Assembly (NCBI GenBank): GCA_963969395.1
Contig: OZ017796.1
Coordinates: forward strand, 7,566,501 to 7,630,500
Length of the DNA: 64,000 bases
Direction: 5' to 3'
DNA from: Pseudoscleropodium purum
Taxonomy: Eukaryota > Streptophyta > Bryopsida > Hypnales > Brachytheciaceae
A model generated the notes under the pieces. That model searched no databases, had not been told where the DNA came from, and saw only the letters and a program-made list of their open reading frames with translations. A program made the position numbers and the translations under genes. Below are positions 3 to 52,700 of the stretch, piece after piece. How positions within the stretch are numbered: position 1 is the stretch's first letter; each line of letters begins with the position of its first letter.

Positions 3-839
3 AGACCGGCCCCGGAAGAGAAACCGGAAGCCGAGAAGACTGTTTCCGGGGGAGACCCGGAAATGCAAGATCCGTTCAACGGTCTGATCAACGTCCTCTG
101 CAACATCAGGGCGGATTGGGAGGTCAAGCACAGGACGATTGCGGCGATCGGCAAGTTGGTAGGTGCGCCACCGGACAGCAAGTTGGCGGAACAGGTGGCG
201 GAGTGCATCACGAATCCGGAAGAGACCCGGAAGCAGGAAGCAGAGATCCGCCGGTTGCAGGAGGAGGTGGATAAACTGAAGGCAACTCTTTTTGCCTATC
301 AGTAAGACGTGACGGCCGCCCGGGAGATGGTGGAGGAGACTCGGAAGATAGCCGAGCAGATCAAGGCGGTCCTGGGAGAGACCGGAACGGCCGCCGCCAA
401 AGCGAAGCTCTTCGACGAGAAGATCCACGAAGAGAAGAAACTATCCGGTTCCCGGATGGTCCGGATTCTCGCCGACTTCGCTGAGCAGGTGGAGACGGCA
501 ATGGTGGAGGGGCGGAAGGCTGCGGACCGGATCGAGGAGAGCAGCCGGAAGCTGACTGGAGCGACGTGCGACAAAGGTATTCATCTTTCAGACATCTCTC
601 TACCGGATCTCTTTCCGGACGCAACCATTCAGAAGGATAGGAAGGATTGGACTCCTGAGTCCAAGAAGTCTGCACGGACTGGGACTCCGGGCACGAGACC
701 GGATATCACCATCGACCTAGAGTCTCCACCCGGATCGAATCCTATAGAGGGGGAACGGGTCCGAAATTTGAGTGAAGTCTTCGAGGAGCTGGTCCTGGAG
801 ATTGGAAGCCCGACCATAGGATCTAGAGTTGTAGGGTAG
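3..839 (+). pseudogene. 3' part of unknown coiled-coil ORF of a GC-rich retroelement, one in-frame stop
   Basis: The frame is open from the left edge of the window and ends at the stop at 837-839, interrupted only by a TAA at 303-305; reading resumes in the same frame, so this is one protein with a nonsense mutation. The part before the stop (from a Met at 63) ends in a charged heptad-like stretch (EIRRLQEEVDKLKATL), and the part after it starts with more helix (REMVEETRKIAEQIKAVL), which suggests a long coiled coil. The C-terminal half is Pro/Ser/Asp-rich and probably disordered. I recognise no enzymatic motif. Codons are GC-rich and the sequence CCGGA recurs, unlike the AT-rich host DNA after 2009. 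Its position just before an LTR-like segment suggests a structural or accessory ORF of a retroelement, but gag, pol or a captured gene cannot be told apart. Confidence 0.5.
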
Positions 840-2009
840 ATAGGATTTTGGATTTCAGTTAGGAGTAGGAGCGGATCCGGCTCAACAGTATTAGGTTAGC
901 CGGAAGTTAGATTAGGATGGCGGCGGACCCCTACGGGTTTTCCGCTCCTTTTTGTGCTTTTAGGGTTTTTACCCTTTGTATATAAATCGGTTCTCGCGAT
1001 GGGAATTGGGAGTTGTTCATTTTGCAAACTTCTTGTACTTTTCTATTCTCTTCATTGTGTGTCTCTCTCCAGCGCGACAGGATTGTATGATGTGGAGTTA
1101 GGATAGTACGAGTTGGTTTGCGAGTGATTTCTCCCCTTGGTGTTTATTTTCCGATCCTAGGTGCATATGAGTAGGTATCGAAGAGTTGGGAGTGAACTTA
1201 GTTCCTCAGCACTTCTAGAGTTTGTGATTCTGGGTGAGAAAGCCGTTATTAGGCTAGGCGGGTAGGGAGGGATTCCTTAGCTGCGCTAGAACTCCCGGGT
1301 GGGAAATCCGGTTGAGTGTCCGATCTCCTGTGAGGTCTCACCACCCGTATGGGTAACGGAAGAACTTTAGTTGATGTTGGAACGGACGGGTGCACTTGTA
1401 ACCACCTGTCTTCGCACGGATCGGAAGTAGCATCAAGGTCGTTGTAGTACGAGAGGGTCGAGTGTGGGGTCTTTGTGTGACCTACAATCCGGATTGCTAT
1501 CTGGGTTGTTGTGAAGGACCAAACCGGATCCGGATTAGCTTAGGATTTTAGGAAGTAGGACAGTGGGTCTTCAGCCACTATAAGTTACGGAAGGAGTGGT
1601 GGGCCTACCACTCTCAAAATTAAGCGGCGACCCCTCTGATGGTGAAACAGAGGCAAAACTAAACCGGATAGGATTACGGATACAGGATGACCATCCCGAC
1701 CGGATTGGTCAGGACGGATTTCCAGGATCGGAAGTTGTGAGATCCTGGGATTTGGGTATTTGTATGGACCGGATAGTAAGTAGGACCGGAAGAAGGAGTA
1801 ATCCGGTCTGTAGTTATCCGGTGTGGTGGTATTTCTGGTTCTAGATCTAGGACCGGAAAGTAAGATTGGGATACTGACTTAGCTTAACTGCTTAATAGAG
1901 CTAGATACTTCACAGGATCTCGTGGGTTCGATCTTTAGAGTCACTTAGTTATACTCTAAAGCGATTTTTGTGAGTATAATGGGGAATTGACCTACCCTGT
2001 GCTGCGACA
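830..2009 (+). mobile_element. LTR-like GC-rich segment (putative 3' LTR) of the left-edge retroelement
   Basis: About 1.2 kb without a credible ORF directly follows the coiled-coil ORF. It starts TGTAGGGTAG, overlapping the end of the ORF, and ends with CTACCCTGTGCTGCGACA. It is thus bounded by TG and CA, and the two ends carry an inverted GTAGGG/CCTAC motif. It holds a TATA box near 979 and is dense in CCGG(A) throughout. Composition changes abruptly to AT-rich host DNA at 2009-2010. The matching 5' LTR would lie left of the window, so target duplication and LTR identity cannot be tested, and the left boundary is uncertain by tens of bases. Confidence 0.45.
979..986 (+). promoter_or_regulatory. 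TATA box in the LTR-like segment
   Basis: TATATAAA lies in the first quarter of the LTR-like segment, preceded by a TTAGGGTTTTTACCC stretch and followed by a pyrimidine-rich tract (about 1030-1070). This is the usual U3/R arrangement of a plant LTR promoter. The start site itself is not determined. Confidence 0.45.
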
Positions 2010-4067
2010 AATACCTTCTTTCCTAGCAGAACAAACAAAGCTCAAACTCCACTTCAATGTGCACAAAAATAACTCCATAACAAAAGACTTTGTTTGTATT
2101 GACACTTTCCAAACATGCTTCTTCCATTTCTTGCTTCATAAAATTGCTAGTACCACTATTTGAGTTCTAGAATCGTTCTAATTTTTCCTTCACCTCTCAG
2201 CTTCCACATGCCTATTCCAACAGACCTCACCAAGTACAAAATTGTAACCATTCCATTTGTACCCATCAATGCACTTACAATTCTAGTCATTTGGTTGACA
2301 TTCTATAGACCATTTCACATGCTATTCATTTTGAAAACAACGTATATAGTATTTGGCAATTCAAATAACAACCATTTCATTCCTCTATACTTCACAGAAG
2401 CACTATTAATGCTACAATTATAAAACTACTCTTTTTCCTACTAACATACACTCATAATTCAATTTCAAATAGTCCCTTCAATTTGTGTCTTCAAATAACA
2501 TTAAAAGACCAGCAACAAGAAAAAAAAAATACCAAGTACACAAAGGAAGATCTCTATCACTACTAACATCACACTGAAATTCTCAAAATTCATAAATGTT
2601 TTTTTCCTATTCTATTATTTGTTTATTACCTCCCTTTGATGACTTATATTATGCAAGTACATACAATAATGATTGGCATCCACCATATACTAACTTTTTC
2701 TACACTTACATATTCTTCTTCCTTCGCTTCTATTACATTTAAGCATTCTTGGTTCACCGTCTCACTTCCTACTTTGAAATTGCCATTACATGTTCCAAAA
2801 CATTCAAAAAAACTTTCCTACTTCTATTTATTTTTTATGGCGAATTCTCCACATGCTCCTACTTTCTGATGTCTACTATACTTGTCGTTAGCTTTGGACT
2901 ATCTTCATATCAAAACACCAATTGCCTATTTCCAGATCACAAAAGGAATAAAAAATTAAACTGCTAAAAAAAAGCTCTTCAATATGACAACAGTGAACTG
3001 GCCCTTACAATGCGCTTCATAATTTATTGTAATAGATCTTCATTCGGAAAATATATGCTGCACATCTCTACATTTAATCTAATTTTAAATTTGGCAATAC
3101 TATAACCATCTTCAAACAAAACTTCTTTGACAATCTTCGGAAAATAACTTAAATGCACTATTTCTTCCTCAATTACAAACCACTAATTGCATAGCTACTA
3201 AATTACCATTCACATATGTTATCAATAATGTCTACATCTACTACTGTTATAGCACAATGTAGCACTTCAAATTTTTCAAGAACTACTAATTAAGTAAGGG
3301 CATTCAAGAATAACTTTAATTCATTATGATTCCAACTTTCTTCACAAGTTTTTAATCACTACAATATACATAAATGAATATGGATTTGTAATACACTAGA
3401 ATAACAAACTTAGCTAAATCATTTCTCGTAAAAAAACCTCCACTACAAGCATGCACTCATAAGCCTTCATTTGCTGATACCCTCCCAATTAATCGGTATT
3501 CTTTTATTAATTTTGTTGATATTTCTCTTCAAATTCTAAACTGCTTCAATTTTTATTGTCCTACCTCTCTAAATTCTCCTTGAAGTTATTCTATGCTATA
3601 ATTCTTCATTTGCAATGCATTGCCCTCTGCAGTCTAAGATAATTACTTGCTCTTATTCAATTATCTCAATAAAGAAGTAGTTAGTTTTAACAACATAAAA
3701 TTAATGCATAAAAATTTCATGAACATTATATTTTTATACTTTATAACCAAATCATAAACTTCATTTACGATAACTATCATATTGTATTTTCTTTTCTTTT
3801 TACTGAAATTTGCGAAAAGTACATTATTGTACTCAATCATCACCTCTATGTAGACATACACAACATTCCAACAATGTCGTTTGTTTTACAAGTCCACATT
3901 CCAAACTTCCTTGAAAAAATTACGTTATGGTAAGACGTTGCCGTTTCTCTATTGCATCAACAACTTCAAGATTATCAATCAACACACTACCTTCCACTCC
4001 TGCACTTCCTCATTTGTACTACCTTCCCTTAGAAACAATACTAATATTTGTTAGCAACCTGAACATT
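2010..4067. other. AT-rich, G-poor noncoding DNA
   Basis: No conserved coding signal is seen on either strand; the short ORFs here are random openings in AT-rich DNA. The plus strand is strikingly short of G (at 3961-4020 there are 21 C and 3 G). It looks like a long-decayed, strand-asymmetric relic. Confidence 0.6.
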
Positions 4068-4711
4068 TTAACCCCTAACTGCCCACGGCATCAGATTCTG
4101 GTGTTTACAATAATTTGAAGTTAAATAAAATCCAACCAAATTGATATTTTTAGTAGTTTGTATTTTTGAAAAACTCTATTCAAAGTCTAGTTCTAGCATC
4201 AAAAATCCGATCTTCAAAATGATTGATTATGATTTTTCTATTCAAGATTTTGTGCAAGGGTACCCATTGCAATCTTGGCTTCCCATAGTGTAGAGGGCTC
4301 TTGGAAATGAGCCTCAAATACACTAGGCCATGGAGGAAAAATCACATTAGAAATTCATTAAAAAAAATTGTAGAGTAGATTTTGGAAAGTTGTAAATTGA
4401 TTAGAGTTGTGCATGTTAGGCCCTATAATCTCATATTTTTTTGGTTACCAACTTTTTAGATCTCACATATGAAAAGAGGTTTGAAAGATTTTTTTAGTTT
4501 TAACACCCTTGTGATCAAACATTATAATCTTTCAATCTATAAGTAATATTGTTGTATTTTCTTTTCCTATGTGATCTCTAACATCTCTAGTTTGAATTTG
4601 TATAGTTACAATTTTTTTGGAATGATACAATTTATCAAAATACTAGCTTTTTGTTGGATTTCAAGCAAATTCCAAGAGCCTAAAAACAAGCCTTGGGAAG
4701 TTAGAGGTTAA
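4068..4711. mobile_element. TTAA-flanked TIR element (copy A, 644 bp)
   Basis: The left end reads TTAACCCCTAACTGCCCA and the right end, reverse-complemented, reads TTAACCTCTAACTTCCCAAG, giving imperfect inverted repeats of about 20 bp bounded by TTAA. The interior is AT-rich and non-coding. Long interior stretches match, in the same orientation, the element at 59665-60241 (for example around 4435-4560 versus 59945-60065), showing that both belong to one dispersed family. TTAA plus a CCC start is the piggyBac signature, but no transposase is present to confirm the superfamily. Confidence 0.65.
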
Positions 4712-7700
4712 TCAACATGTCCTCTTTGCCCGAAACACATAAATGACTTTGTTCATTGATTACGAAAGAGTAGCATAAGATTCAAGAATAAACAAAGAAT
4801 TTTGACGAACATGAGGTTAGTATTCCACTTCCAATTCCCCAACTAAGTACTATAAATACGACATTGTATCCGCGTCCTGTCCTAATGTTTCATTTTGCAT
4901 CTTCAAATTTGGACACAAGTTTCTTGGACATTGACAACTTTCAAACATTTGCATGAGGACTTACATAGTGAAATTATACTCCTTCAAGCAAGGTAGGTGA
5001 CGTTACCTTCTACAAAAGGGCTTGCAATTTATAAAACTAGATTCAATAACATAAATACAAAAGGAAGCCAATACAGCTTCCATTGGATTCTTAAAATGTT
5101 TGTAACTTCCTCCATCCTATGAACAACATGTGCACAAAAGTATTCAATGACTACATAAAGCAACTGAAGTAGTCAAAAGGCAATATGATTCATCACTTTC
5201 ACAAACATCTCAAATTTTGCAGAAAGGTCTATAAGTCATCAACTGTAAGAAAGGTGTCAAATACTTCACATGAAAACTTATTACAAATAACAACATTGAC
5301 TACGGAACTGTATTCAACTAACAAAAACAAATATTTGGCATCCACTAAAAAAATGAATGCCATCCCTATTCAATTTGCACACCTTCTTTGTCTTCAGTCT
5401 CTTGCTTTGGACTTCCGCCATGCTCTATTTGCTTGTACAACTCTATATGCCAACATAGTTCTCAAAACAAATTCCTTGCCCAATCATTTGTAGTAGGCCA
5501 GCAAACTTTGAAGCCTTTGGAATAGTAGTTCCTTAATTCATGCACATTCTTCAAAAACACAATATTAATCACTTAACTTGTACTTCACATGGTCGTCTTC
5601 TTATAAGGATTTCACTAACATTTTAATGTCTACATATGTCTTGCTTTCAAAACTTACTAACATTTCGTACCTCACAATTTTCCAAAATCACCAAAATAAG
5701 TGAATTCATTATCAAGAAAAGGACAACCAATTTTTCATCCTCATGACAAATTCGCAATGCAATACAGAAAAAAATGAAGTGAATCTTCTTTTTCAAACAA
5801 TCACCAACTAATCTTCAAAAGAAACACATTAATCTACTATGATTACTCTTGATTTATTGAAGTTGACATCTTCTCTCTAGGTTCCATTACTCGAATAAAT
5901 TGAACATGGAAATACATAGGATTGGAGACAAACTGAAATCTTCAATGCATGAAAACATTAAACACAATTCCAATGCTCTAACAAAGCAAACATCCATTTA
6001 ATAAATGCAAGAAGTAGTGAGGAATTTCTTTGGAGTAATTATTGATTTTGACAAGCTTCCTACCTATTTCACTTTAATATTACCTACCTCCAGCTAGAAC
6101 AACGACTTTGAAGGTAATGGGTAAGGAGCATAGTCATCATTCATCAACGAAGGTAATTCATTAATGCAACATTCCATATGAACCTGTTGAAATTTTCTTA
6201 GACTAAAAGAAAGGTTTAAACTATCTTGAACCTACAATAGATTCAGTTACTACATGAACTTGTCACACCTCAAACTATACACTTCTCCATTCATAATATA
6301 ACATGATGAAACATATAGAAATAACAGTATAACACTGAAACTCATTGAACTTACATTTAATCTACTATATACTTTGATTCTCTTTTAGTGACATCTAAAA
6401 TAGACGGCAACTACTTCCTACTTCCATGTGACATATACATTCAATTCCTACATCAATTCCTATGGTTGCTCAATTTATATACAACTACCACTCATAAACG
6501 AAATTAACTTATAAATAACACATATTCATGTGCTATTGTAATGCCTTTCTACTACAAATCCTTTATCACTTACCCTTTGGGTTATTAAATTTCATGATAA
6601 CAAAACATCCAAAAGTACGTCAAACAATAACATGACAACAAGGACACTTCATTTTACTAGAAGTTCACATAATACGTGTTTCATTCACATATTTTAGAAA
6701 CTACACAACATATTTGAACAAGCATGTTCATTACTAGTTCCGTGTCAACATTTACCTAACATTAACATTGAAACACAAAATAGTGAATCGACCACATCTC
6801 CATAAACTATTTCCTTATAAAATTCAATTTGCATTTCTCTTCAAATCTGTGTTGTGTCCCCTACTTAATCTTCAGGAAAAAAATGCTTCATTGCCAATTA
6901 AATATGCAATAGAACAAGTTTCCTGTCCATTTTTTACTCCTTTAACTTAGAGATTAAGAGGAAAACAAGACAAACACAATACATAGACGACTAATGCAAA
7001 GGAATTTAGCAACATTCATTATTACATAAGACATTCTTTAGTATAGCAGGAAATACAAGACATACAATGCTCTCACCGCACAAAAACATTCATTCCTCTT
7101 AGTCAATCTCTATAAACTTAAATAAATAACCCAAGGTGCATTACGTAATTCTGAATTGACATATATCATTGTTTTTGACAAAATCATATTGTTAGAGAAA
7201 CATATTTTCATTACAAAATCAAATTCTCCATTGGCAACTACTCTTTCTATATATTAGACATTATATTCTCTTAGTAATCTCCATTCCACTACTGCATGAA
7301 GTACACTTCATGCTGGCCCACTTATATGAAGAGCATTGAATTTCAAAAATTAATTACATGACCTTCAATCTTTTATCCGATCTGACAATTTGCATAAGAA
7401 GCAAGAGGACCCTACAGAGGAATTCATGACAAATGACAATTATTTTCGAATAATGAAAACTATACACTACTCCTTTAGGTTAAAAAATTAGCATCAATGT
7501 ACAAAGAAGATTCACAACCGCCTATACATGTCATTTGTAATACCAATGTGTTATACAAGCAATGTCATTATCTAAAAATGAAAACATAAATTGGTTTCTT
7601 CATTTCACAATTCTTGTATACATACCTCTTTTTTATAACAACACACACGTGGCAGTAACTACTTTTTGGCAGATATACCTCCAGTTTTGTAAGAATCTTC

Positions 7701-8068
7701 AAATACGGAAGTCAGGAGGTGCATTTGCAAAGCACCCCCCTATGTCACTCGATGAGTTCATGAAAAAGGCCATTTCTTCAAGAAGGACTTTGTTAATATG
7801 ACGTTGTCATTTGTATTGAAGAAGGAATTGCACAACTTACTAAAAATGTAACTAATCAAACATAATATGTACTAAGAATGAAACTAAGAAGCAAACAATT
7901 AAAAGAGAAAACAATATATTAAACAAAGATAGTCTTTTACATAAACTTTCAAAAAAGTAGTCTATTGCATTCTTGAATTGTTAAATAAGAAAAACATCTT
8001 CAGACTTCGTGAACTTGTCCACTTGCATGAAAATAACAGAAGTCGTCAAAGACACTCTCCATCAATCT
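4712..8068. other. AT-rich, G-poor noncoding DNA (continuation)
   Basis: Continuation of the strand-asymmetric block. ORFs of 60-100 codons (for example 5185-5493 and 7562-7801) have no recognisable domain, splice context or codon bias. The block ends abruptly where the retrotransposon LTR begins, and similar sequence resumes after 17487, suggesting that the retrotransposon inserted into it. Confidence 0.55.
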
Positions 8069-9019
8069 TGTCATGTTAATCAATGGCGGGTGGTTGGTAG
8101 GCTCTGTAGAGCATGTCGTAGGCTTAGTATTGTCCAAATGGTCATGTATTGGTCATTGGGGGCCTATATTAGAGTTTTGAGATTGAAGGAGGTGTGAACA
8201 GAGCTATTTGGGGGCTCCTTTAGGGTGGTTGTAACCCTAGGCCGCCCCTTTGCTCCTTCACTCTCTTCAAGTCTTGCATATGTGTGTAGTTTATGAGTTG
8301 ATAGGAATTGGAGCATGGATGTAATGATGATTGGTTGTTATACCAATCTTTACTAGTGTTATTCCTTGATTCATCTCGGTTTGTAAGACTAATCCAATTG
8401 AGACAAAGTATAAGCTATCTTGGAGTGTTAGGGAAGCTTATTATTTGAAGAGAGTGAAGGAGGTGTTGATGTGAGAGCACTAGAGTTGTTAGAGACGTTT
8501 GAATTGCTGTATTAGGGTTGCTGGCATTGGTGGTAACGTGCGGAAGCGCTGGCAAAATCAAATCTTGGAGCTTTGGTGTTGGAGGTGCTGATGTTGAGGT
8601 GGAGGGTGTTGGAGAGTTTCCAAGGGTGACAAGAAGATCTAAGAAGAAGCTCTTTAATGTAAAAATTCCATAGAAATAAGTTTCAAGCAATTCCGACACT
8701 TTTTGCAAAAGTTGTGTGAGTTTGAGTAGAGTGGTGAAAACCCTCATGTGTGCTGGACCAAACATGCAAAAGTGCTGATTTAGGGTTTGAGGGCCATTAG
8801 GGTGACTTTTTAGTGTTATAAACACTAGAAGTTGTTGTATTCCAAAAACTGTAAAATTGTCGAAAACTGTCAATTTTTGAAGAAGTTATGGCAGTTTGAA
8901 GTTTTGGAGTTGAAGCCTTGTTTTGAGAGGTGTTTTGTGAGGTTTGTTGACGTTGTTCAAGCTTTGATAGCTTCGAAGAACGAGAGAGACGAAGACCAGT
9001 TGACTTTTGATAGTTACCG

Positions 9020-9165
9020 GACCATTTACTAGAGTAATTTTGAATATTACTGGATCAATTATCGGGGTAACTTTTGGAAGTTACTAGGGTAGTTACTGGG
9101 GTAATTTTGAAAGTTACCAAGGTAATTTCTTGGATAACTTTTGAGTAGTTTTTGAAAATTACCAC
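9020..9165. repeat. Array of TTACT/GGTAA inverted motifs inside the LTR
   Basis: Units such as GGTAATTTTGAAAGTTACC, GGGTAACTTTTGGAAGTTACT and AGAGTAATTTTGAATATTACT follow each other; each is an imperfect palindrome with a TTTGA-type centre. The last unit, AATTACCACAA (about 9158), pairs with TTGTGGTAATT at 9213-9223 across the A-rich tract. The role is unknown; clustered palindromes in a U3 region may bind protein or form hairpins. Confidence 0.5.
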
Positions 9166-9174
9166 AAATTATTT

Positions 9175-9211
9175 TAAAAAATAAAAAATAAAAAATAAAA
9201 AATAAAAAAAA
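9175..9211. repeat. (AAAAAT)n simple repeat
   Basis: Five to six A-rich hexamer units lie within the LTR. Confidence 0.85.
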
Positions 9212-9666
9212 TTGTGGTAATTCCCTATTATACTAGGGGCTGATTTTAGTTTGGAGGTGTAGAAGGAGGCCATTTAGAGGGGTTTGGAGGGCTATTAGTG
9301 GGTTACAAATTTATTACTTGTAGTTGTGATGCCCTAGCCTATTTTGGAGGCTTTCTTTTATACTTTGTGCATCATTGTTGTTGCGGGCAGCGTGGGTTAC
9401 ACCATTGCTTAGCTCCATTTCTTGTTACGGTGACGAAGTGGGAGTTGTGACCCACATGGTCGAGACTTGCTTGTTCTCATGGTAAGGCTGGAGTTATGAC
9501 CAGCAGACCGTGATTTTGAAGTTTAGGATCCATTTTCACCGACAGTATCTCGTGGAATGCCGTCGGTTCCACCTATCCCATATCCCGTGGTTTTCTTATC
9601 CCTACCTGGATACTTGAACCAATCTAGAGCTTCAACAGGATAGGCCAACGGGGAGCAGTTTGACAG

Positions 9667-9678
9667 TGGTATAGAAGA
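9667..9678 (+). promoter_or_regulatory. Primer-binding-site-like sequence (initiator tRNA-Met type)
   Basis: TGGTATAGAAGA lies two bases after the LTR end (TGACA). Plant LTR elements primed by initiator tRNA-Met usually carry TGGTATCAGAGC here; the first six bases and several later ones agree. It fixes the 5' LTR end and the plus-strand orientation, and gag starts 22 bp downstream. Confidence 0.6.
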
Positions 9679-9699
9679 TTCGACATTCAAAGGTCGTTT

Positions 9700-11458
9700 A
9701 TGGTTCAAACACGGACGCGTGACTACGTTGCAGAGGAAGACCAGGAGGTCGCAGTTCACGTTGAGGAGGACAGAGAGGAGTCAGCTCTACCCTCCGTGAT
9801 AGTTGATCCCCTTAAGAGTTGGAGAATTAGCGTTTTTGACGACATGGAAGACCATAATGGTGGATCCATGGTTCGTGACCGCTACTCCGGAAGAGCTGAG
9901 GACGTGGCCTTTAATGATTGGAAGACCAGGTTTCGATCTTGGCAACGCACACAAAGACAACACAATGTTCTTTTCAATGATTGGTGGGCTTTTGAGCAGC
10001 TACCCACCCATCTTGAGTTTGAGGCGTTGCAAACCTATGATTCTTGGTTTGAGGATCATAGGGTTGAGCTTGAGGAGGTGGAAGACTATTGGGCTCGAAG
10101 GGTGGAGTTAGTCACGGCGTTGAAAGAGGGAGATGCATTCCCAGCAACTCAAACTTCAAAGACTAGTGATGGAGATGAAGAGAAAGGCGAGGAAGCTACC
10201 TCGGGCCCTGATGCAACACGAGCTGCGCGGTTGCTTTCTAAAGCTGCTACGAGTGGCGCTAGTGGGACTGCAACTACATTCATCTCTCGGTTGGCTTGAG
10301 CTTCAAATGATGCAATAGCCACGATGGGCCCTCTTCCTCAGTTTGATCCACTCCGATTGTTTTTTGAGCATTTGGAGATGGAGTTTGGAGGCATTCGCCG
10401 CGATTGCATGCGCCACATCCAGGATTTCAAGAAAGAGATTGGAGACACTTCCCGCATTATGTATGCAAGACTCTCCAAGTTTGCTCGTGATAGCGGAGAT
10501 GCATTCACGGAACGCCAGTTGGTGGAGCTTTATATGGGGAAGCAAGACAAGAAGATTCGTGATATGGCACACCCTCACATGTTGTTGGCATATGATTGGA
10601 GGTCGAGCTACTTTAGCTCAAGCTTTTGCTATTGTGGAGCAATTGGATCGAGGGCTATGTGTAGAGGAGGTTGGAAGATTGTCATCCATTATGACTTCAA
10701 CACCCAGCTAGACTAAGATTGTTGTTGGTAGTTCTAGCAAGAGCCAAGGGAACCCCAAGGTCTCCAAACAAATTGCTATGGCAGCTGAAGTGGAAGTGAC
10801 AACCAATTCTCGTATGCGGTGTTGGAATTGTGGATTGCTAGGCCACGGAAAGAGAGATTGTCCTACAGATACATCATCTGAGGGTAAGAATGGTGGGCAA
10901 TCAGTTACCAACAAGGGCAATGCAACCACAACAAATAGAGGCCCACAAAAGAAAGTACAAGGTGGAGGAACACCTCCAAAGTGCACTTATGCACCTTGTA
11001 GTCGGGTTGGTCATACGGAGGACAAATGTTGGGTGAAGAACCCGCAGTTGAGGCCTCAATCTTTCACCCCACAAGGTGCTCAAGGGGGTGGATCAAATTC
11101 TGGGGGCAACAATCTTGAGGCACGCATGGGAGAGTTGCAAAATACCCTAGCATTGCTTATTGCAGCGACAACAAAGATCACACCAGTTCCTTCTAATTCA
11201 AAGCCTGGACCAGATAGGTTTGAATATGGAGCATTTGGTGAGGTGGTTGCAGCGGTGGCTACGAGATCACAAGCCAATTCTTTACCAGTTGCACCCATGG
11301 TGGAAGGAAACTCAACTACTCCAGGTGGGCATCATGTGCGTCACCAAGGGCCTCCTGATAGTATTGGGCAATCAAGATTGCCAATGACATTTGGCTTGGC
11401 AGATGTGGTGACTAGTCCATCACTTGAAGCTAGCCCTGATGGAAGAAATTTCCCGTAG
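9700..11458 (+). pseudogene. gag: gag of the methyltransferase retrotransposon (capsid plus CCHC knuckle), broken
   Basis: It starts at ATG 9700 (MVQTRTRDYV), the first ATG after the primer site. An acidic N-terminus is followed by a Trp-rich helical region (FNDWKTRFRSWQRTQ) and a capsid-like region (RQLVELYMGKQDKKIRDMAH, about 10519-10578) typical of plant Ty3 gag. After a frameshift near 10590 the reading continues in the next frame with a zinc knuckle, CWNCGLLGHGKRDC (10820-10861, pattern CX2CX4HX4C). A second Cys/His cluster (CTYAPCSRVGHTEDKC) follows at about 10982. Breaks: TGA at 10297-10299, the frameshift near 10590, and TAG at 10709-10711. The frame ends with TAG at 11456-11458, six bases after a slippery heptamer that would lead into pol. 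Gag packages the RNA in particles; this copy cannot. Confidence 0.75.
11446..11452 (+). other. Possible -1 ribosomal frameshift site between gag and pol
   Basis: The heptamer A AAT TTC is in the gag frame, fits the X XXY YYZ rule, and lies just before the gag stop TAG (11456). A -1 slip moves translation into exactly the frame used by pol. The sequence is seen directly; its function is inferred. A downstream pseudoknot was not evaluated, and a simple indel mutation remains possible. Confidence 0.4.
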
Positions 11459-12600
11459 AAAAAGACATGATGGTGAAGAGTTTGGCTGTTAAACTCTTAG
11501 AAGTTCCATTGTTTTCAGGGGTTTAGTTGCAGAGCGACAACTTTGATGCAGCTGCCGTATATCATATGGCAGGGAAAATAATTCAAGGAACGGTCCAGAT
11601 GCCTGCCAATGTGGCCATGAGGGAGATGGAAGAGTCTTCTTTGGCTGAGGGTGATGTGTGCACAAGGAAGGATGCTGCTAAAGAAGCAGCGAATGCCTTG
11701 CGATGTTGGAAGGGGTGGCTAAAAGAACCTCCTTCGCAAGCAAAGTTTGATAGCCACTTGAATTCAAGTGGAGAAGCTGTTGAAGTTGCCACAAGCTATT
11801 TGGCAACGATACTAGCTCGTGCAACTCGTGAACGCTTGCAAGTCAAGCCTGGAGTGGTGCGTTTGGCCAATTCTAGCCATGTCTTTTCTGTGGCTCGAGG
11901 TGAAGCACCTCAAGTGTTTCCACAAAAAATATTGCTTGATACAGGAGCCCAACCAGTCATGCTAGGCAAGTTGCTAACTCAGAGTTTGGGGCTTCTTGCT
12001 AGTGACTTGGAGCCATGTCCTTTCACCATAGCAACATCACTAGGGGGCACAAAGCAGCCTACAGGGATGATAAAAGAGCCCCTACGACTTCGGTTCAAGG
12101 TGGGCACTGATGCGTATACTCACATCTCTATGAGGTGTGTTGTAACAAGTGCTACGAGCTATGACATTCTTTTGGGGCAGCAAGTTTTGTACCCCATTGG
12201 TTTTGGTCATGATTCTTGGACTGAGGAGGTATGGTTTCGACCAGGGTGGTCACAAGGAGATGGACGGAAGGAGGTGATTCCCGTCATCTTTGGAGCTTTT
12301 GCTGGCGTGGTTGAGGGATTGGTGACAGTGTATGGGTGTGTTGCAGAGTGGTTGGCAACCGGAGATTTTCTAATGGAGGGCAACATGTCTGTTATAGACT
12401 CGCCTCTAGAGTTAGATACGCCAACACAAGGCAAAATCAACTCATTTGTAAGACATCCCAAGGATCCCATACCACCATGGATTTCACCAAAAGCTTTGCC
12501 TGAGAAATGCCATGAATTAGTGGAGAAAGTAAACCAGCAGCTATGGCAACCACAACACACACTACCACCTCTACAACAACTGGTAGATCTTTCTGATGAT

Positions 12601-13575
12601 CCTAAGGGTATAGTTCTTGTGGAACTATTTGCTGGATTTGGTACTGGTTTAGCTGCAGTTTTGGAGGCAGGATTGTCTATACAAAGTTATACTTATGTAG
12701 ACAACAACATAGTGGTGAACAGAGCTGCAAAACATCATTTGGACCAGTTAAGAATGAAATTTCCAAAGCAACTACCTGCAAGCGCTATTCAAGGTTGTAT
12801 GTCTCGAGTTCCTTCAGACATTGCTTTGATTGGAGAAGAAGATCTTTTGAGGTTGGGCCAAGTGGACCTTGTGATGGCTGGATGGCCTTGCCAAGGGCAT
12901 TCCCGGGCTGGTTCTCGCCAAGGACTCCAAGACCCACGATCAAGTTTATTTTGGGAGCTCTTACGGTTGTTGCATTGGTGGCAATGTAGACAAGCTACAA
13001 GTGTGGCTTATGTTCTTGAGAATGTGCCTCTATTGGGAGATGTTGGAGCTCAAGTTCATGAGGATGCACGATTGGTATGTTAGCACCTTGGTCAGCTAGT
13101 GGTAGTGGATGCTGCAGCCCTTGGTTCTTACGCCCATCGTTTACGGTGGAAGTGGACCAATTTGGCTCATATGCAAGGGATTTTTGCGGCAGTACATCGC
13201 ATTAGTCGTCCCGAGGGCAGACATCTTGATGACATCTTGGAGGAGGGGCGATCGGCCCAAACAGTGGTGCAAGAAAATCAACCACCGTTAGCTATAATCA
13301 ACTGTGTAGGAATGCCTCGATTGGCATTTCCTACTTTGATGAGTTATCCTCGGTCTTTTGCTTTTTGCAATGGCGGACCGGGCTTGGTATTTGACAACAC
13401 TTCTATGAGATTGGAGGAGCCGAGTGCTACTGAGCAGGAACGTGCTATGGGTTTCCATACCGGCACCACTTCTGGGCTTGGATTGACAGAGTCTCAGCGG
13501 CGTCATTGTCTTGGACAAGCCATGGACTTGACATCCATGGTTTGGTTTCTTGGGATATGCCTAGCAGTTCAACGG
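12601..13575 (+). other. C5-cytosine DNA methyltransferase domain within pol
   Basis: The domain carries the ordered catalytic motifs of DNA (cytosine-5) methyltransferases. Motif I is VELFAGFGTGLAAVLEAG (AdoMet binding, 12622 on). Motif IV is GWPCQGHSRAG with the catalytic Cys at 12889-12891. Motif VI is VLENV (Glu at 13018). Motif VIII-like is YAHRLRWKWTN (about 13129). Motif IX-like is RLEEPSATEQERAMGF (about 13411) and motif X is RRHCLGQAMDLTSMVWFLG (about 13498). The order I-IV-VI-VIII-IX-X is canonical, with a compact target-recognition region between VIII and IX. A TAG at 13081 splits VI from VIII. The domain sits between protease and RT in the same frame with no sign of introns. It would methylate DNA, perhaps its own cDNA or the host target; substrate and sequence preference are unknown. 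Its relation to DNMT3/DRM, DNMT1/CMT or bacterial types needs a tree. Confidence 0.8.
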
Positions 13576-16500
13576 CACAAGAAACTTGGCCTTGAAAGCC
13601 ATCTGGGGGCAGATGTTTCAGGCCAGGGGGCAAAGGGTGTTGTGCCTCTAGCAGTGGAGAAGATGGCTACTCTAAATGCCAAAGCATGGCATGATAGTGA
13701 GCAGGCTTGCAGTCAAATACTTGAAAAGAAGAGAGACCAAGACTCTGTGGAGTGGCTTGTAGAAGATGAATTGCGAGGACAACGTGTATTGGCAGCATTG
13801 GCTCAAGATTTAGGAATGGAAGATGCCAAAGAGAAGTTCAAGAGGGTTTTTCTTACAAAAGAAAATCCATTTCTTGTCACATCACCTCACTTTGTAGTTG
13901 GTGCTAATGTTGGCATTAATGGAGGTGATTCGGTTGGAATGATTGAGAGTGATGATGCATCTATTGTCCTGCAAAAAGGCAATGGTGTAAGCTCTTCCAA
14001 CTAGCAACCAAAGGTGGTGTCAGCACCATTAAAGGGGTCCCTGAAGGAGGAAGAAATCTTGCCAATTTACAAAGATTGGGAGATGGACATAGGCATGGGA
14101 CTCACTGGTGTAGAGGCACGGAAGGTGCGAGCATTCATACGCTCGTACAAGGCTTGCTTTGCTTTTAAACTCACTGACTTGGAGGGTTATAAAGGCAAGC
14201 CTGTGAGAATTCAATTGGAAGATGATCATCCAGTGTTTAAACGCCCGTATAGGCTTAGCCTTTCAGAAAGAGACGGGGTGAAATTGAGGTGCAAAGAACT
14301 TTTGGACGCCGGATTGATAGAACTTTCAGATGGAGAGTATGCATGTGCTACAGTGATGCCAACAAAAAAAGATGTTCTTGGAAATTGGACGGAGAAGAGG
14401 ATGTGTGGAGATTACCGTCATGTTAACAAGAAAACAAAATCCGATCGCTATCCCATGCCAACACCTGAGGAGTTATTTGATGCAGTTGGAAGGGCAAAAG
14501 TCTTTAGCACTTTGGACTTGAGGTCTTGATACCATCAATTGCCATTGAGACTTGAAGATAGGGTGAAGACGGCATTTTGGGGAGTAGATGAGGATGAAAG
14601 AGATATGCTTTTCCATTGGAAGTTCTTACCTTTTGGCTTGAAGAATGCCCCAGCAGAGTTCCAACGTGTTATGGATCAAGTCTTGAAGGGGTTGCCATTT
14701 GCTCAGTGTTACATAGATGATGTGATTATCTTTAGTGATACACTGGAGGAGCATGTACAACACTTGCAGCAAGTTTTTGAGAGGCTGCAAGCTTGGGGTC
14801 TTCCCTTACATTATGGGAAGTGTAAATTCTTCCATGATCAGTTGCCTTACTTGGGACATATGATTACACCAGGAGGCTTGGGAGTACAAGAGGCGAAGGT
14901 GGAAGCCTTGAAGAGGATCCCAATTCCTAGAGATGTATCAAGGTTGAGAGCCTTTATGGGACTAGCAAACTATTATCGACGATTTGTTCGTGGGTTCAGT
15001 CTCTTGGCAAAACCTTTGACTCGATTGACTCGGGTTGATCAAGAGTGGATGTGGGGACCTGATCAAGAGAAGGCATTTGAGGCTTTGAAAGGAGCACTTG
15101 GTTCAGCACCAGTGTTGAGGCGGCCTGATGCTCGACGACCTTTTCAACTCCACACAGATTGGAGTATGTTGGGGATTGGAGCTGTATTGACGTAGAAGGA
15201 TGATGATGGCAAAGAATATGTTATTGCGTATGCTTCACGAAGCAACAATGATGCGGAGGCCAAATATTCATCTTATGAGGGGGAGTGCCTAGCTGTGGTG
15301 TGGGTAGTTGCACATTTCCGTCCATACCTCTATGACCAGAGCTTTACACTTGTGACTGATCATCAACCTCTAAAATGGTTGATGGAGTCTGATAAACTCA
15401 CAGGGAAGCTTTCTAGGTGGGCCTTATTGTTGCAAGAGTATGATTTTGAAGTAGTCCACAAGGCGGGGTTGCAAAACTTGGATGCTGATGGCTTGAGCCG
15501 CAATCCAAGTCCCTTGGAGGAAGATGTGACTGGTGCTCGGTGGCATGGCTCATGTGATCAAGAGGCAGTGCCAGGGTGGCATGCTTCATCTTATTTGGCT
15601 TGGATGGAAGGAAGATCCAGCCAAGATTTAGGAAAGACTCGATTGAATGTTGTTGATGAGGACTTGGATGAAAGAGGACCTCAAGTTACCACTGATGTGT
15701 GGAAAGACCAAGGGGTTCTACATCGTCTTCAACATGGGGAGTTTTTGCCTAATACTATATCTCAAGAAAGGGACCGGATAGTCCATCGTTTGGCTAGGTT
15801 TCATTGGAAGGGTTGCCTTATATTTCGTCGATGGCCGGATGGAACAAGGAGGGTTGTTCCTAGGCCTAACCAACGTCTTCAACTGATACGTCAGGTTCAT
15901 GAAGAGTTGGGTCATTTTGGAGTGCTTCGTACGTATTCCATGTTACGTGGTTTGTATTGGTGGATGGGTATGCGACAAGAGGTAGCAACCTATGTAGGGA
16001 GGTGTGAAGTTTGCGATCGAGTTAGATCAAGCTTCAATACTCTAACTCCCCAATTACAGCCTTTGCCAATCATGGGTTTGGACTATAGGTGGAGTCTTGA
16101 TTTTGCCGGGCCATTGATGACTACATCACGAGGTGCTAAGTATGTACTTGTGATGGTAGAGCATTTCAGTAAGTGGATTGAGTTGGTGGCACTACCACAA
16201 AATTCCACGGAGTTAGCAGCAATGGCCTTCCTTGACCGTGTATTGGATAGATTTGGAGCTCCAGCTGAGGTGTTAACTGACCAAGGAAGAGAGTTTCTTG
16301 GGGCATTTGAAGAGCTTTGCACTAAAGCTCTAATTGATCACCGTACAACATCAAGAAACCACCCAAAGGCTGATGGATTAGCAGAGAGGGTGGTTCAGAC
16401 GGTGAAGCGCAGTTTGCGCAAGTACAGGTTGTTGGCAGGCAATCACCGAGATTGGAATTTGAAGTTGCCATGGATAGCAATGGGTTATTGTTTCAGTCGA

Positions 16501-16986
16501 CAGGCATCTCTTGCATCTTATAGCCCTTATCAGCTATTGTATGGCAGAGAGCCAATGTTACCGTCGGCTTTGAGGGAGAAATTAGATCCAGTTGTAGACT
16601 TGGATGACCCAAGAATTTGGGCACAAGTACTACATGATCGAGCTGAGTATTTTCAAAGGGCCATGCCAATGGCTATGGAAAATTTGGCAATAGCGCAACA
16701 CAGAGATACTCTCAGATATGCGCACATTAAAAGTGGGACTTATAGGCCTCAACTTCGACGGTTCAAGGTTGGAGATTACGTGTATTTACAACGTGAGGCA
16801 CCAACAACCTTGGATGTACGGGCTGGACGGACCATTTTGAGGGTCAAGGCAATTTTGCCTAGTGGAGTTCTTCTTTTGGAGGGGAAGGATGGACAAGAGT
16901 GTAGAGACAACACAAAAAACTGCGCTCCTTGTCATTTGCCAATTGAAGGGACTGTGGATCTAGAGTTGGTAGTGGTTCCACTTGGA

Positions 16987-17136
16987 TTTAAATGTTTTGT
17001 ATGTGGTGAGAGCAAGGGTGTTGCAACCATGTTATTGTGTGATTCATGTCAACGAGGTTGGCACATGGCATGTCTTCGACCGCCATTGATTGCTCTTCCT
17101 GTTAGATGTTGGACTTGTCCTCGTTGTAGAAGTGAT
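16987..17136 (+). other. C-terminal PHD finger of the retrotransposon integrase
   Basis: The last 50 residues contain CFVC, LLCDSC, GWHMAC and WTCPRC, giving the C4HC3 zinc-ligand pattern and the aromatic/hydrophobic pattern (MLLCDSCQRGWHMAC) of PHD fingers. PHD fingers commonly bind the histone H3 tail. Fused after integrase it could tether the pre-integration complex to chromatin, as chromodomains do in chromoviruses; this role is inference. Confidence 0.75.
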
Positions 17137-17139
17137 TAG

Positions 17140-17487
17140 CTAGTACTACTTTTTCAAGTGGTTGCTGATTACTTTTCTCATTGACGGAAGATGTACTCAT
17201 TTTGTAACATTTAATGTTGGAGTATGAGCGGTGGTTCTTGATATTGAAACTTGGATGGAGATTTCGTGGAGTCCAACTACAATATTGGAAGCGATTGAGG
17301 ATGGGGCTCAATTGTACCCAACTTACCCCCTCACTTATGATTGATTCAAGCTCAGCAATGGATGGGGGCCTTTCGCCTATCTTCTTCAACATATTGATTA
17401 CATAGTGAGTGTAGGGAAGTTTATTTCATTGGACTTCTATTGTTAGCTGAGTTGCAAGGGCGCTTTACTCAGCTAGGGGGGCAATTG
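17140..17487 (+). other. Element 3' noncoding region and polypurine-like tract
   Basis: No ORF is credible here. A short G-run (AGGGGGGC, 17475-17482) is the best polypurine-tract candidate. The sequence after it shows no similarity to the start of the 5' LTR (TGTCATGTTAATC), so the expected 3' LTR is absent at that point. Confidence 0.4.
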
Positions 17488-20137
17488 AATGGTTGTTTAT
17501 TCATGCCTTGTTGTAGTGTGGATTTGCATGTGGGCATGTGTGTATGTAGTAGTACATGTAGTTTACGACACTTACTGTTAGCGATACGGAGTGATACGAC
17601 AATCTGCAAACCCTCAATATCCTTTTGTCAACCAAGCAACTACTACATTTAAAAAAAATAAATGCGGCATCGAAATCAATAGTACAGAAACTTCTATGTG
17701 TACTAAAAATGCCAACAAAATTTAATGTATATTCTTTTATTTTTAAAATCTTCCATTTGTCATTGGCACAAACAATGGCTGTAGATTCAAAGGACACCAT
17801 AAAATGTTCTCATCAATGAAGAACTTCAACATTTTGAATTACAATTGAAATTTCAAGAATTTGAAAGCATACATAATAATCAAAAAAATGACCAAAGCAA
17901 GCCTCCATTGAATGTTAACTTCATTCACTGATATGTGCTACCCACTTCAAGTTACTTTCGCTCTTCAAAGGACATTGTCAGTGCAAATAAATGGTTAAAC
18001 ATATGCAACATTACAATTCCTATCTACATGTACTAGTTGAAGTTACAACAACAATATCTTCTTCTATACATAGTCATCTAACTTACCTATAAAGAAGAAT
18101 GTCTTGCGCACAACTATGAATATCTATCTTCCTAGACTTACCTTATGATTGAAAACTTATTAACTCCATTAGTCATTCTTCATATTCAGTTAACCAACAA
18201 CTAGATTAGCTACCATTTAATCAGATCAACAAATATTTTGTTATATGATTTCATGCTATGAAACTACACAATCCAACTAACATTCACAAAACTTCAATGA
18301 AAATTATTTTCCAATGCAAACTCGAAGCTTAGTCTGTAACAACAAAGAACTTAAGAGAGTTGAACTCCAGTCTAAAATCACATTCCTAATATGTGCTTCT
18401 CCACTCACTTAATGGCATTTAAAACTGAACATCTAAAACATAACTTTTGATTATCTACTTCCAGCTTAGTGGGATTGAAAGTGTTTCATACATTAATTAA
18501 CATGTCCTATTAGAATTTTTCATCTATAATAGACATTTCTAAAATCCTTTAGAGACCCAACGTCTTTTTTTTTTAGAAATACGTATTTCATAGTAAAATG
18601 ATATGTGTGCACATGAATAATAAAAAATTAAAAACAAACAAACAACTGGACATGTTTTAGTGAGATGTAAAAATGCACTTTACAATGCAAAAATATATTT
18701 TACTGTAGTACATTATGACATTTTTTGGGACACTTCTTACTGAAATATGAGAGCCCTTAAAAGTACAACAATATAATGTAAAATTCTAAGCACTTCCTTG
18801 CTCTTCAACATGAAAAATTTAAGTTACATAACTAACAAACAAACGGAATGAAACATGTACCGAAACTTTCTCATCAATTAGAAGACAAGAGCTACCACTT
18901 CCTAAACATTCCATAAGACTAAAATTAATATATCATTCGTAAATAGCATTCACTTACAACAATGTCTACACATTATTGTGGTTTTTATAGAAATCCGTAG
19001 ATACAAGCAGTTTTGTATGACATGTCACTTACACATCTCTTTCTTGGTTCATGTCCTATCATTTGTGCCAAGTTTGGAAAGATGATGCATAACTAAGTTC
19101 AACACACAATGAAACAAACATGTAAACATTTTGTGCACATTGTGCACTAGATTACAACCAGGCATGTGGAGTCTTCATTCCACATGTTCTCATACAATCA
19201 CCCTTCACAACGTTTTCCTTTGCAATTTCTCGCGTTCATTCTTCCTTGACTTGAAGAACTCAAGTGTATATCCAACCTTAATACACTTCATTAGCCTTCA
19301 AGTGAAAATGCCATGAAACAATGATAACAAAAATTAAAAAATATGGAATTTAGCACAAAAATCTATGTTGACTTAGAATTTGAAATAACTTTTCCTTCTT
19401 CCACTAGATCCAATTACTAACTACACCTCAATCTATGTCTCCACATCTCACTGCTTTAGAATGAGACATCATGATCGTTCCAAATGAAGAGCCCTTCCTA
19501 GAAACACCTTTCAAGATTCGAAATTCAACTTCAAGTCGTTTTATATATTCTTTGGTAGAAGTCTTGCTTGTCTTAGAAATTATTCATTCAATGTTGTCTA
19601 TGATAGATCCTTGAGGAAGCCCGTCTTTGCCTTTGTAAGGAAATTCAACCAATTCCTTATTCACCTTCAAAATTAATAAGTATTCTACTAAATTCATTAG
19701 TTACCATCAATAAACAAGGACACAATATACAATTGAAATGCGGAAGGTGATTATACAGACCTATACATCCATTCTCCACACCACTATCCCCCTTTCAATG
19801 TCGATGTCTTCATTGTTGTATTCTTCGATTGGATATTCCTGCAATGTAGAATTTCTTATTTTATCCTCCATGAATTGCTTGCTCCCTCCCTCAATTCATC
19901 TTCTGGCAATTTTTCCTGATTTAGCTTTTTCTTTTCCAAACCCTTTTTTGTGTTGCCTTTCATCTATTACCTTGTCAAGATTGGGTGACTGCCATAAAAT
20001 TCACGAAGTCTTTGTCGCACTCCAGTCTTGCCTATTAAACTGGTCCTTCCCACAACTTGATGACATCTATTAGCATATCTTCCATGCTCAGTTTTGTTTA
20101 ACCTTTGTTTACTTTCTACAAGTTTTTCAAGTCGAAG
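17488..20137. other. AT-rich noncoding DNA resembling the block left of the retrotransposon
   Basis: Similar base composition and C-over-G tendency to 2010-8068. ORFs such as 17625-17819 and 19738-20073 show no domain. I see nothing else in it. Confidence 0.5.
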
Positions 20138-32371: not shown

Positions 32372-32531
32372 CTAGTAACACTGTATTTCTCAAATACTAA
32401 TTGTCATCCTTGTTTATCCCTCGTAGTCACAGCATTTCAAATCCTCTTATTTGTACAAAGACAATGGGAGGAAACATCGGTGGTATCTAAGTTTTCTATC
32501 ACTATAAACCAACAGCTTAGTGATGCAAGTA

Positions 32532-33107
32532 CAGTGGGGTACCAATCAAAATGTCGTTTTCGAATTCGCAGTGAGAAAAATTCTAGTACTACCAACTTTG
32601 AAAGCCTTCCGAGAGCTCAAAAATTGGTATTTTACCACAAAATTTTTAACAAAGAATTATCTTTATGTTAATTATATGTGTGACAAATTTCAAGGCCAAA
32701 AGATTCACCAAAAGAAAGTTATTCAAAATCTACCAACATTGGTAGCTGTGGAAATGTTTTCACTGCTGCCAACTTTGACAGCCTTCCAAAGATTGAATTA
32801 TTTTTTTTTTGCCATGAAATTCTTGGAAAAGAAACCTCTTTATGATAATAACATATGATAAAAATTTCAAGGCCAAAATATTAATACAAAAAAAGATATA
32901 AACAATCTACCAACATGTGTCGTTTTGAGAAACAATTGTGAAAACCGTTTCACTACTTCAACTTTGACACCCTCCCAAGGGCTGAAAAATTGCTTATTTA
33001 CCATGAAATTTTTGGCACAACGTGCTCTTTATGATAACAACATTCAAGCCAAATTTCAAGGTCAAAAAATTTATACAAAAAGAAATATTTACAATCTACC
33101 AATGTGT
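32532..33107 (+). repeat. Left terminal inverted repeat of the Tc1/mariner element
   Basis: It consists of three related units of about 180-200 bp, beginning near 32569, 32752 and 32930. Each contains a CCAACTTTGA(C/A)A(G/C)CC block, a CATGAAATT-type block, TTTCAAGGCCAAAA and a CTACCAA end. The whole is inverted at 34751-35326 at the same length. Confidence 0.85.
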
Positions 33108-33755
33108 AGTTGTGAGATACCTTTTATTAAAGACATTGAAATTGTTGAAGTATGTCAGACAATCATGCTTCTAGATTGAAATTCTCCAGATGATGCAATC
33201 TCTAATCATAAATGCTTCTCAAAAAAATCAAGGATAGCCAAATTTAGTTGTGTGCACTTGTCACATCTCAAAGACTACACTTGTTTAAAAATTGGAAACC
33301 ATACATGTATGAAGAAGTTTTTTCCTCTCAATAAGAATGTTGCATTTACAGTAGAGCATTATAGGAGGTGGGATGTGGGATGATGAGAGAAGAAAGTGAT
33401 GGTGATTATTTTCTAAGCACAGGACTGAAACTTTGTGAACATGAGTGAGTGCATGAAAGATGAATTAACTAAGTAAGTCTAGGTTATGTGATAATTGGGT
33501 GGATGAGGCATGGGATGAATGTCTGAGGATATATGGAGGTATGTGAGATTTTCTTCAAGAATGAGTGAGGTTATAACTTACATGTGGTGACTGGTGAGGT
33601 CTGGTGAATGAGTGAAGGTTGTAAGGCATGATGATGGTGAGTGATTGAGGGTATGTGAGATTTTTTTCTGATGACTGAGTAAGGTTATATATGTGCTCAG
33701 TGAGTGAGGCTGGATCATGGTGATTAAGTGAAGGCTAGATCATGGTCACTGAGTG

Positions 33756-35326: not shown

Positions 35327-35344
35327 TACAAGTTTTGCACTAAG

Positions 35345-48700: not shown

Positions 48701-52700
<4,000 letters not shown>

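Follow-up and report, generated by a model that had tools for sequence, protein, structure and literature searches.

As a rule, retroelements are targets of cytosine methylation, and some carry a cytosine methyltransferase (MTase) of their own. KnitGypsy-Dnmt3 of Klebsormidium nitens holds a Dnmt3 in the Pol open reading frame (ORF) of a Gypsy element under purifying selection, and the legend of Fig. 4 describes its repeats as DIRS-like with a Gypsy domain composition (PMC5890265). SymbioDIRS-Dnmt3 has a Dnmt3 in a retroelement with A-coding-B-A-B repeats, as does the family described here, and methylates CG in yeast (PMC5890265). According to a 2019 article, land plants, such as tracheophytes, lack such transposons (PMC6338049). 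Here we analyzed a 64,000-nucleotide stretch of the moss Pseudoscleropodium purum (assembly GCA_963969395.1, contig OZ017796.1, positions 7,566,501 to 7,630,500, forward strand), referred to below as the window. An initial annotation had placed a complete C5-DNA methyltransferase in it, within the pol frame of a Ty3/gypsy element. We observed a decayed 9.5-kb Ty3/gypsy element with Gag, protease (PR), C5-cytosine MTase, reverse transcriptase (RT), RNase H, DDE integrase (IN) and a PHD finger.

The best joint explanation, to which we give a probability of about 0.62 from sequence comparison, is that the window holds a dead member of a Ty3/gypsy family with a captured DNMT3-type MTase and a readthrough stop, which would methylate its own complementary DNA (cDNA) and integrate by ends in the middle of its long terminal repeat (LTR). 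Homology to other copies in the same genome starts at 8068-8069 and, in copies reaching that far, ends at 17601-17604; the window copy begins with TGTC at 8069 and finishes with GACA at 17601, with ATCT on either side. The features are as follows, with A and B denoting two repeat parts, L045, L048 and L050 own-genome copies, and L029 a foreign relative described below.

8065-8068, no strand: left target-site duplication, ATCT
8069-17601, + strand: whole element as inserted, form A-int-B, from homology to other own-genome copies and the ATCT/ATCT flanks
8069-8445, + strand: repeat part A, 377 bp, TGTC start; a second A, joined to B, lies adjacent in L045, L048 and L050
8253-8269, + strand: segment of A complementary to the primer-binding site (PBS), a 17-nt perfect complement; putative 5' end of the transcript
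8446-8462, + strand: putative self-primed PBS, from complementarity to A
9026-9144, no strand: degenerate tandem repeat of a 33-34-bp unit in the 5' leader
9700-11458, + strand: gag, broken by in-frame stops and frameshifts, read against the reference ORF in L029
10820-11029, + strand: two CCHC-like zinc knuckles of Gag (motifs 10820-10861 and 10982-11029; zf-CCHC below the Pfam cut-off)
11932-12183, + strand: aspartic protease, LLDTGAQPV ... ILLGQQ (Asp_protease_2, E=0.001, under the curated cut-off)
12607-13530, + strand: DNMT3-like cytosine-C5 methyltransferase, motifs I to X in canonical order, from motifs, Pfam and the model of homologue P0015
13081-13083, + strand: in-frame TAG within the MTase, a lesion, as aligned homologues have no stop at this place
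14002-14010, + strand: conserved TAG CAA CCA between MTase and RT, putative programmed readthrough
14011-15195, + strand: RT and start of RNase H, in-frame stops at 14527 and 15193 (RVT_1 5.9e-23, RT_RNaseH_2 7.2e-13)
15196-16398, + strand: rest of RNase H, H2C2 zinc-binding region and DDE integrase core (RT_RNaseH 7.8e-14, Integrase_H2C2 5.2e-17, rve 1.2e-13)
16993-17127, + strand: PHD finger at the IN C terminus (PHD 3.1e-8)
17473-17483, + strand: putative polypurine tract (PPT), CTAGGGGGGCA
17484-17601, + strand: repeat part B, 118 bp, GACA end
17602-17605, no strand: right target-site duplication, ATCT

The order Gag, PR, RT, RNase H and IN is that of Ty3/gypsy elements (PR, RT and IN were found in 10 of 10 fetched copies), as are the DDE (rve) integrase and the short target duplication. 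PF13650 was assigned to the protease of the homologues P0001 and P0002. No tyrosine-recombinase family was found at E<=0.01 among the Pfam matches of the eight reading frames scanned, a DDE integrase being present instead, and scans for tRNAs and Rfam families gave no match. The window copy is dead: besides the stops and frameshifts of gag, in-frame stops interrupt the MTase at 13081, RT at 14527 and RNase H at 15193.

By its published description KnitGypsy-Dnmt3 is the nearest known kind and is of the same kind as the window family. The two, compared by description only, have in common a Gypsy element, a non-rearranged Dnmt3-type MTase, the lack of introns, multiple copies, purifying selection and DIRS-like repeats (PMC5890265). 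They differ in host, the window family having moss and liverwort relatives, and in that the Klebsormidium MTase is described as lying in the Pol ORF, whereas that of the window family is in the same frame but before a conserved readthrough-type stop (PMC5890265). The self-priming PBS, the PPT position, the mid-LTR ends and the PHD finger are absent from the description of KnitGypsy-Dnmt3 in the available parts of that article (PMC5890265). SymbioDIRS-Dnmt3 uses a tyrosine recombinase, unlike the DDE integrase of the window element (PMC5890265). Chromoviruses of the Tcn1 clade in mosses and club-mosses are likewise Ty3/gypsy elements of non-seed plants with predicted self-priming but carry a chromodomain, and the available text of this survey of plant LTR elements has no occurrence of methyltransferase or PHD (PMC6317226). 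Ty3/gypsy elements of orchids have also captured a nucleic-acid-modifying enzyme, an m6A RNA demethylase rather than a DNA methyltransferase (PMC9289625). The initial annotation had pointed to retrotransposon MTases from Klebsormidium, and the published architecture does agree with that of the window (PMC5890265). In an IN tree of 107 rows from 122 candidates, the window lies inside a 31-row clade (SH-aLRT 99) with L029, Riccia, Marchantia and two Calypogeia rows, and groups with P0024, P0026 and P0030; outside the clade are two K. nitens integrases (P0080, P0084) and two other Calypogeia rows. The integrase P0030 and the MTase protein P0001 are each on a contig 36,659 long.

The MTase is read in frame +1, with GIVLVELFAGFGTG at 12607-12648, AGWPCQGHS holding the presumed catalytic cysteine at 12877-12903, VLENVPLL at 13012-13035, HRLRW inside 13129-13161 and C-terminal ERAMGF and LGQAMDL blocks at 13438-13530. 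We take these to be motifs I, IV (PCQ), VI (ENV), VIII and X. The canonical motif order reported initially thus holds across 12607-13530, although the window copy is complete in that respect only, being interrupted by the TAG at 13081 between motifs VI and VIII. Pfam DNA_methylase matched the N-terminal half (E=1.7e-11), and the C-terminal half alone matched no Pfam family at E<=0.01. The domain does not lack fold similarity, since in a predicted model of the homologue P0015 the best structural match was DNMT3A/B and the fold was closest to the DNMT3 catalytic domain. For an MTase tree, 47 proteins whose MTase match was of sufficient length were retained from as many as 129 candidates, and L029 and the window were added. 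The careful version of this tree left out 12 more retrotransposon rows, P0176, P0223, MET1 and 9 of the 13 phage-type or bacterial rows. Retrotransposon MTases formed a separate clade (99/99), and in the careful version grouping them with host DNMT3-like genes was not rejected (p-AU 0.28). By motifs and predicted fold the captured domain appears to be a DNMT3-type cytosine methyltransferase. An origin from DRM, in which motifs VI-X precede I-V, was rejected, the window order being canonical, unlike that of the host DRM-like L031 and L088. Also rejected was a host gene lying beside a retroelement, as the MTase is in the same frame, intronless and in the same order in other copies.

The arrangement is common to a family. 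With the PR-MTase ORF (11527-13080) as query, 23 proteins were found at E<=1e-3 (best 4.4e-192), the best two being PR and MTase proteins with 63% and 67% identity. PF00145 was present in 16 of the 23 and several others were pieces of Gag-PR; P0023, the weakest match (1.7e-4), resembles a bacterial-type enzyme. A family-profile search gave 169 proteins, and among the 120 of these that were listed none was named Klebsormidium. Relatives in other bryophytes include Marchantia polymorpha MARPO_0008s0049 (P0169), which reads as Gag-PR-MTase in our domain analysis; Mp_7g09570 (P0126), with protease, MTase remnants, integrase and PHD within one Marchantia gene model; PR-MTase proteins of Calypogeia fissa (P0151) and Sphagnum troendelagicum (P0195); and an MTase alone in S. 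troendelagicum (P0181). As judged from their sequences, these proteins contradict, for bryophytes, the stated absence from land plants. No land-plant case of an MTase-bearing retrotransposon was found in the titles and abstract starts of the literature searched, which is no proof of absence.

Scanning the moss's own genome (313 Mb, 52 contigs) gave 72 PF00145 matches, of which 34 were read as element copies (10 fetched with flanks, 20 shorter stretches, L032, L034, L040 and the window), two (L087, L089) as element-like MTases only, and nine as host genes or unclear (2 DRM, 2 MET1 exons, 4 DNMT3-like and the unclear L086), with 27 outside this reading. Host DRM-, DNMT3- and MET1-like genes, named by motif, are thus present. 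The MTase was followed by RT in 34 of 34 copies, PR, MTase, RT and IN stood in that order in all 10 copies fetched with flanks, and the protease was present in all 14 copies whose stretch extends to it. Same-order copies had been proposed as a check, and the domain is clearly not confined to a single copy. Subfamily A has 8 copies including the window, with about 92-94% identity to the window over the PR-MTase segment in the five fetched copies; subfamily B has 25, with 43-44% identity over that segment; and L074 stands apart from both. Twelve of the 34 copies have no in-frame stop in the aligned MTase codons. The foreign relative L029 (contig CADCWO010000201.1), filed under a cyanobacterial metagenome-assembled genome but eukaryotic by content, holds a Gag-PR-MTase frame without a stop (3-3491, open at the contig start), the TAG, and an RT-RNase H-IN-PHD frame without a stop (3492-6635). 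Its contig ends overlap by 127 identical bases, which suggests a circle or a collapsed repeat. A chance match or single-copy artifact was rejected on the 23 and 169 protein matches and the 34 copies with MTase then RT. That a host or viral MTase fragment merely happened to lie in one retroelement is scarcely credible: the broken state of the window copy would suit such a join, but L029 and the 34 own copies have the arrangement in common, the domain is also present in proteins of liverworts and Sphagnum, and it is under purifying selection against L029. Among viral contigs, queries P0015, P0002 and P0024 found no relatives; the family profile found 28 low-identity MTase loci there, of which the 12 placed in a tree fell outside the retrotransposon clade. 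A search of phage records gave 281, every one of them under 60% identity, and in no case was 80% of the query covered. As separate observations, P0015, like L029, carries the name of a bacterial metagenome-assembled genome, and L087, L089 and L074 are more divergent MTase-bearing sequences of the same genome, L087 resembling P0158 by eye.

The MTase had been placed inside the pol frame. It does lie between protease and RT, but it ends the Gag-PR frame at the conserved TAG at 14002. The motif TAG-CAA-YYA comes after the MTase coding part, with the RT frame directly behind, in L029 and in 34 of 34 own copies; it reads TAG CAA CCA in subfamily A, TAG CAA TCA in B and L029, and TAG CAA TTA in L074; the bases preceding the motif differ between subfamilies. 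This in-frame UAG followed by CARYYA is the readthrough signature UAG-CAR-YYA, of which the CAR YYA part is described as indispensable when tobacco mosaic virus RNA is read through at UAG; the article also mentions rice gypsy elements as candidates for readthrough (PMC2754532). The window and L029 keep one frame across the TAG; frameshifts elsewhere are present in some copies, and L063 and L074 have a further stop behind the motif. Beyond the TAG, an in-frame ATG first appears at codon 117 in L029, L052, L054 and L060 and at codon 91 in L058. Nine homologous proteins with a like tail end at this place (P0002, P0005, P0008, P0013, P0015, P0016, P0018, P0144, P0145), and P0001, P0020, P0021 and P0022 end upstream of the tail. 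Mere decay was rejected for the TAG at 14002, as it is kept in all 34 copies read. Readthrough is the best reading, with the stop probably leaky, and the MTase would then be produced together with Gag, in larger amounts than RT and IN.

Selection on the MTase was estimated as dN/dS by a script of our own (Nei-Gojobori type, stop codons dropped, L074 counted apart); the pairs share sequences and are not independent, and some saturated sets gave no value. Between subfamily B and L029, at a dS of about 0.43-0.51, median dN/dS was 0.093 for the MTase (25 pairs), 0.092 for RT (25), 0.086 for PR (8) and 0.069 for IN (5), so that the purifying selection suggested at the outset is borne out against one foreign relative. 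The MTase value for A against L029 was 0.157 (8 pairs, dS near saturation). Between A and B the values were 0.265 for the MTase (200 pairs), 0.146 for PR (40) and 0.122 for RT (60 of 200 computable, dS high), and for L074 against the others 0.130 for the MTase (32) and 0.073 for RT (33). Within subfamily A they were 1.16 for the MTase (28 pairs) and 0.93 for RT. The letters WPCQG and ENV were unchanged in 35 of 35 rows, in line with the expectation of conserved catalytic motifs in multiple copies.

The repeats depart from an ordinary Ty3/gypsy layout. Identical LTRs at both ends were not found; the repeats are split as A-int-B-A-B or A-int-B. The whole DIRS-type form A-int-B-A-B occurs in subfamily B, as A-int-B-GC-A-B in L051/52, L053/54, L055/56 and L057/58 and, with extra sequence between A and B, in L059/60; L048 and L050 show the 3' half of this form. 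L045/46 is A-B-GC-A-int-B, and the window, L041/42 and L043/44 are plain A-int-B. An LTR search within the window found no LTR pair because this copy has only one A and one B. Target duplications of 4 bp, judged by eye in 11 copies, were perfect in seven of nine testable copies and had one mismatch in two; L047/48 and L049/50 lack the 5' end. The extra sequence of L060 (4284-4563) is about 277 bp of element-internal sequence between A2 and B2, behind a PBS copy, and a second, mostly deleted unit may be the source of this A-B unit.

A polypurine block, AGGGGGG(G)CA, stands immediately before B, nearly identical in L048 (one change), L050, L052, L054, L056, L058 and L029 and not seen for L060. 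Directly downstream of A lies a segment whose complement is found some 185 bases inside A, over 17 nt in the window and 12-13 nt in subfamily B with at most 2 mismatches. In all nine copies examined (the window, 3 of A and 5 of B) this complement is at positions 183-186 of A. The putative PBS would pair with the putative 5' end of the transcript, in self-priming of the Tf1 type, and a retrovirus-style LTR would run B-GC-A, with the PPT before and the self-primed PBS after it. The PPT, the self-complementary PBS and the target duplications together place the insertion ends inside such an LTR, at the palindrome GACA-GC-TGTC. All three forms, A-int-B, A-int-B-A-B and A-B-A-int-B, would be explained by integration of cDNA that is circular or joined at its ends; repeat recombination is a simpler explanation of A-int-B.

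In the mechanism we propose, some ribosomes would read through the TAG, giving particles with much Gag-PR-MTase and little Gag-PR-MTase-RT-IN, and the protease would release the MTase within the particle. Reverse transcription would be primed by the transcript itself, and, before or upon integration, the MTase would methylate cytosines of the newly made cDNA, probably at CG, so that the marked cDNA might resemble methylated host DNA or gain protection. The DDE integrase would then use the palindromic center GACA-GC-TGTC of the B-GC-A LTR, probably in circular or joined cDNA, yielding the three insertion forms with their 4-bp duplications. Methylation of the element's own cDNA, already raised in the initial annotation, is retained as a plausible and, we infer, the most likely role of the MTase. 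Less likely than not is a wider proposal: a streptophyte-wide Gypsy lineage would make a DNMT3-type enzyme as a major particle protein via the leaky stop and integrate by its DDE enzyme from circular or end-joined cDNA at the LTR-internal palindrome, the MTase-marked circle being the true transposition intermediate of a DIRS-like life cycle built from Gypsy parts.

The PHD finger at the IN C terminus suggests another target. The readthrough product or the PHD finger might tether the enzyme to histones, so that host DNA flanking the insertion is methylated and new copies settle in silent chromatin. Of the 439 integrase relatives found, 120 were listed, and 76 of these carry PF00628. In animals, DNMT3 has an ADD domain, which is a PHD-like reader and would fit such tethering. 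The ADD domain is named in PMC12344493. The MTase precedes the stop, so that most of it would be made without IN and PHD, and we regard action on insertion-site chromatin as unlikely.

Transitions between copies in the MTase segment were enriched at CG (24% versus 12% of cytosines in A, 43% versus 20% in B) and at CHG (35% versus 13% in A, 24% versus 11% in B), from which the copies were probably methylated in plant fashion, without self-methylation being singled out. Such traces of methylated copies would also suit self-limitation, an idea voiced in PMC5890265, in which the element methylates itself, its copies are soon silenced and the host is spared. The host MET1-, DNMT3- and DRM-like genes suffice for the pattern, however, and CHG enrichment is unexpected from a CG enzyme; we consider self-limitation improbable. 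Observed/expected CpG was 0.47 in the element, 0.46 in the window beyond 20 kb and 0.65 in its first 8 kb.

Several of our observations weigh against the explanation we favor. These CpG values show no clear mark of extra self-methylation. The best solved structure for the N-terminal half of the window MTase alone was HaeIII (3.4e-5), ahead of DNMT3A (9.5e-5). All B-L029 pairs contain L029, making them one comparison many times over, and the copies were selected by their MTase, so that members without it fall outside the count. In comparisons of A with B the MTase shows weaker constraint than RT, and within B its dN/dS was 0.67 (300 pairs) against 0.42 for RT; the within-genome ratios, near 1 in A, are as expected of copies decaying after insertion. 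Decayed copies show variation at the glycines of motif I and the arginine of motif VIII (kept in 26 to 31 of 35). An early ATG follows the TAG at codon 27 in the five subfamily A copies checked and at codon 5 in L056 (B), making reinitiation possible in subfamily A and one B copy. Finally, the Klebsormidium Gypsy DNMT showed no methylation in yeast, a result its authors call inconclusive (PMC5890265). An MTase that no longer methylates DNA, kept as a nucleic-acid-binding module or as an RNA methylase aiding packaging or reverse transcription, would accord with the inactivity of the Klebsormidium and LINE versions in yeast, with RNA as suggested by the authors for the LINE type (PMC5890265), and with the weaker constraint between subfamilies. 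The invariance of WPCQG and ENV is more than mere binding seems to require, and we rank such a role slightly below the chromatin one.

Elsewhere in the window, 580-bp inverted repeats, 97% complementary, lie at 32529-35329 around a DDE_3 transposase fragment (34083-34670) that we take to be of Tc1/mariner type; this is probably a fairly young DNA transposon. Host gene exons, one with a WW domain, were observed at 50012-51783 (- strand), where a motif presumably resembles trimethylguanosine synthase in an exon without a Pfam match. A tandem array of about 10 copies of a 74-bp unit lies at 53397-54138. At 61418-62167 (- strand) a histidine-rich ORF ends in a thioredoxin-like CxxC start (WLVVLYAPWCRFCQV); this ORF alone had no Pfam match.

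What appears new here, at the level of sequence, is that the element occurs in bryophytes, that its MTase precedes a conserved stop of readthrough type, and that a DDE integrase is combined with DIRS-like repeats and with insertion ends in the middle of the LTR. A de novo type MTase of the element's own, kept under selection as strong as that on RT in one between-species comparison, suggests that methylation helps some step of the cycle. The conserved stop yields a prediction of stoichiometry, and the combination of split repeats and a DDE integrase calls into question the rule that a tyrosine recombinase is required for such repeats. Marchantia is a laboratory plant, and with relatives of the element there, experiments outside dinoflagellates can address why retrotransposons carry DNMTs.
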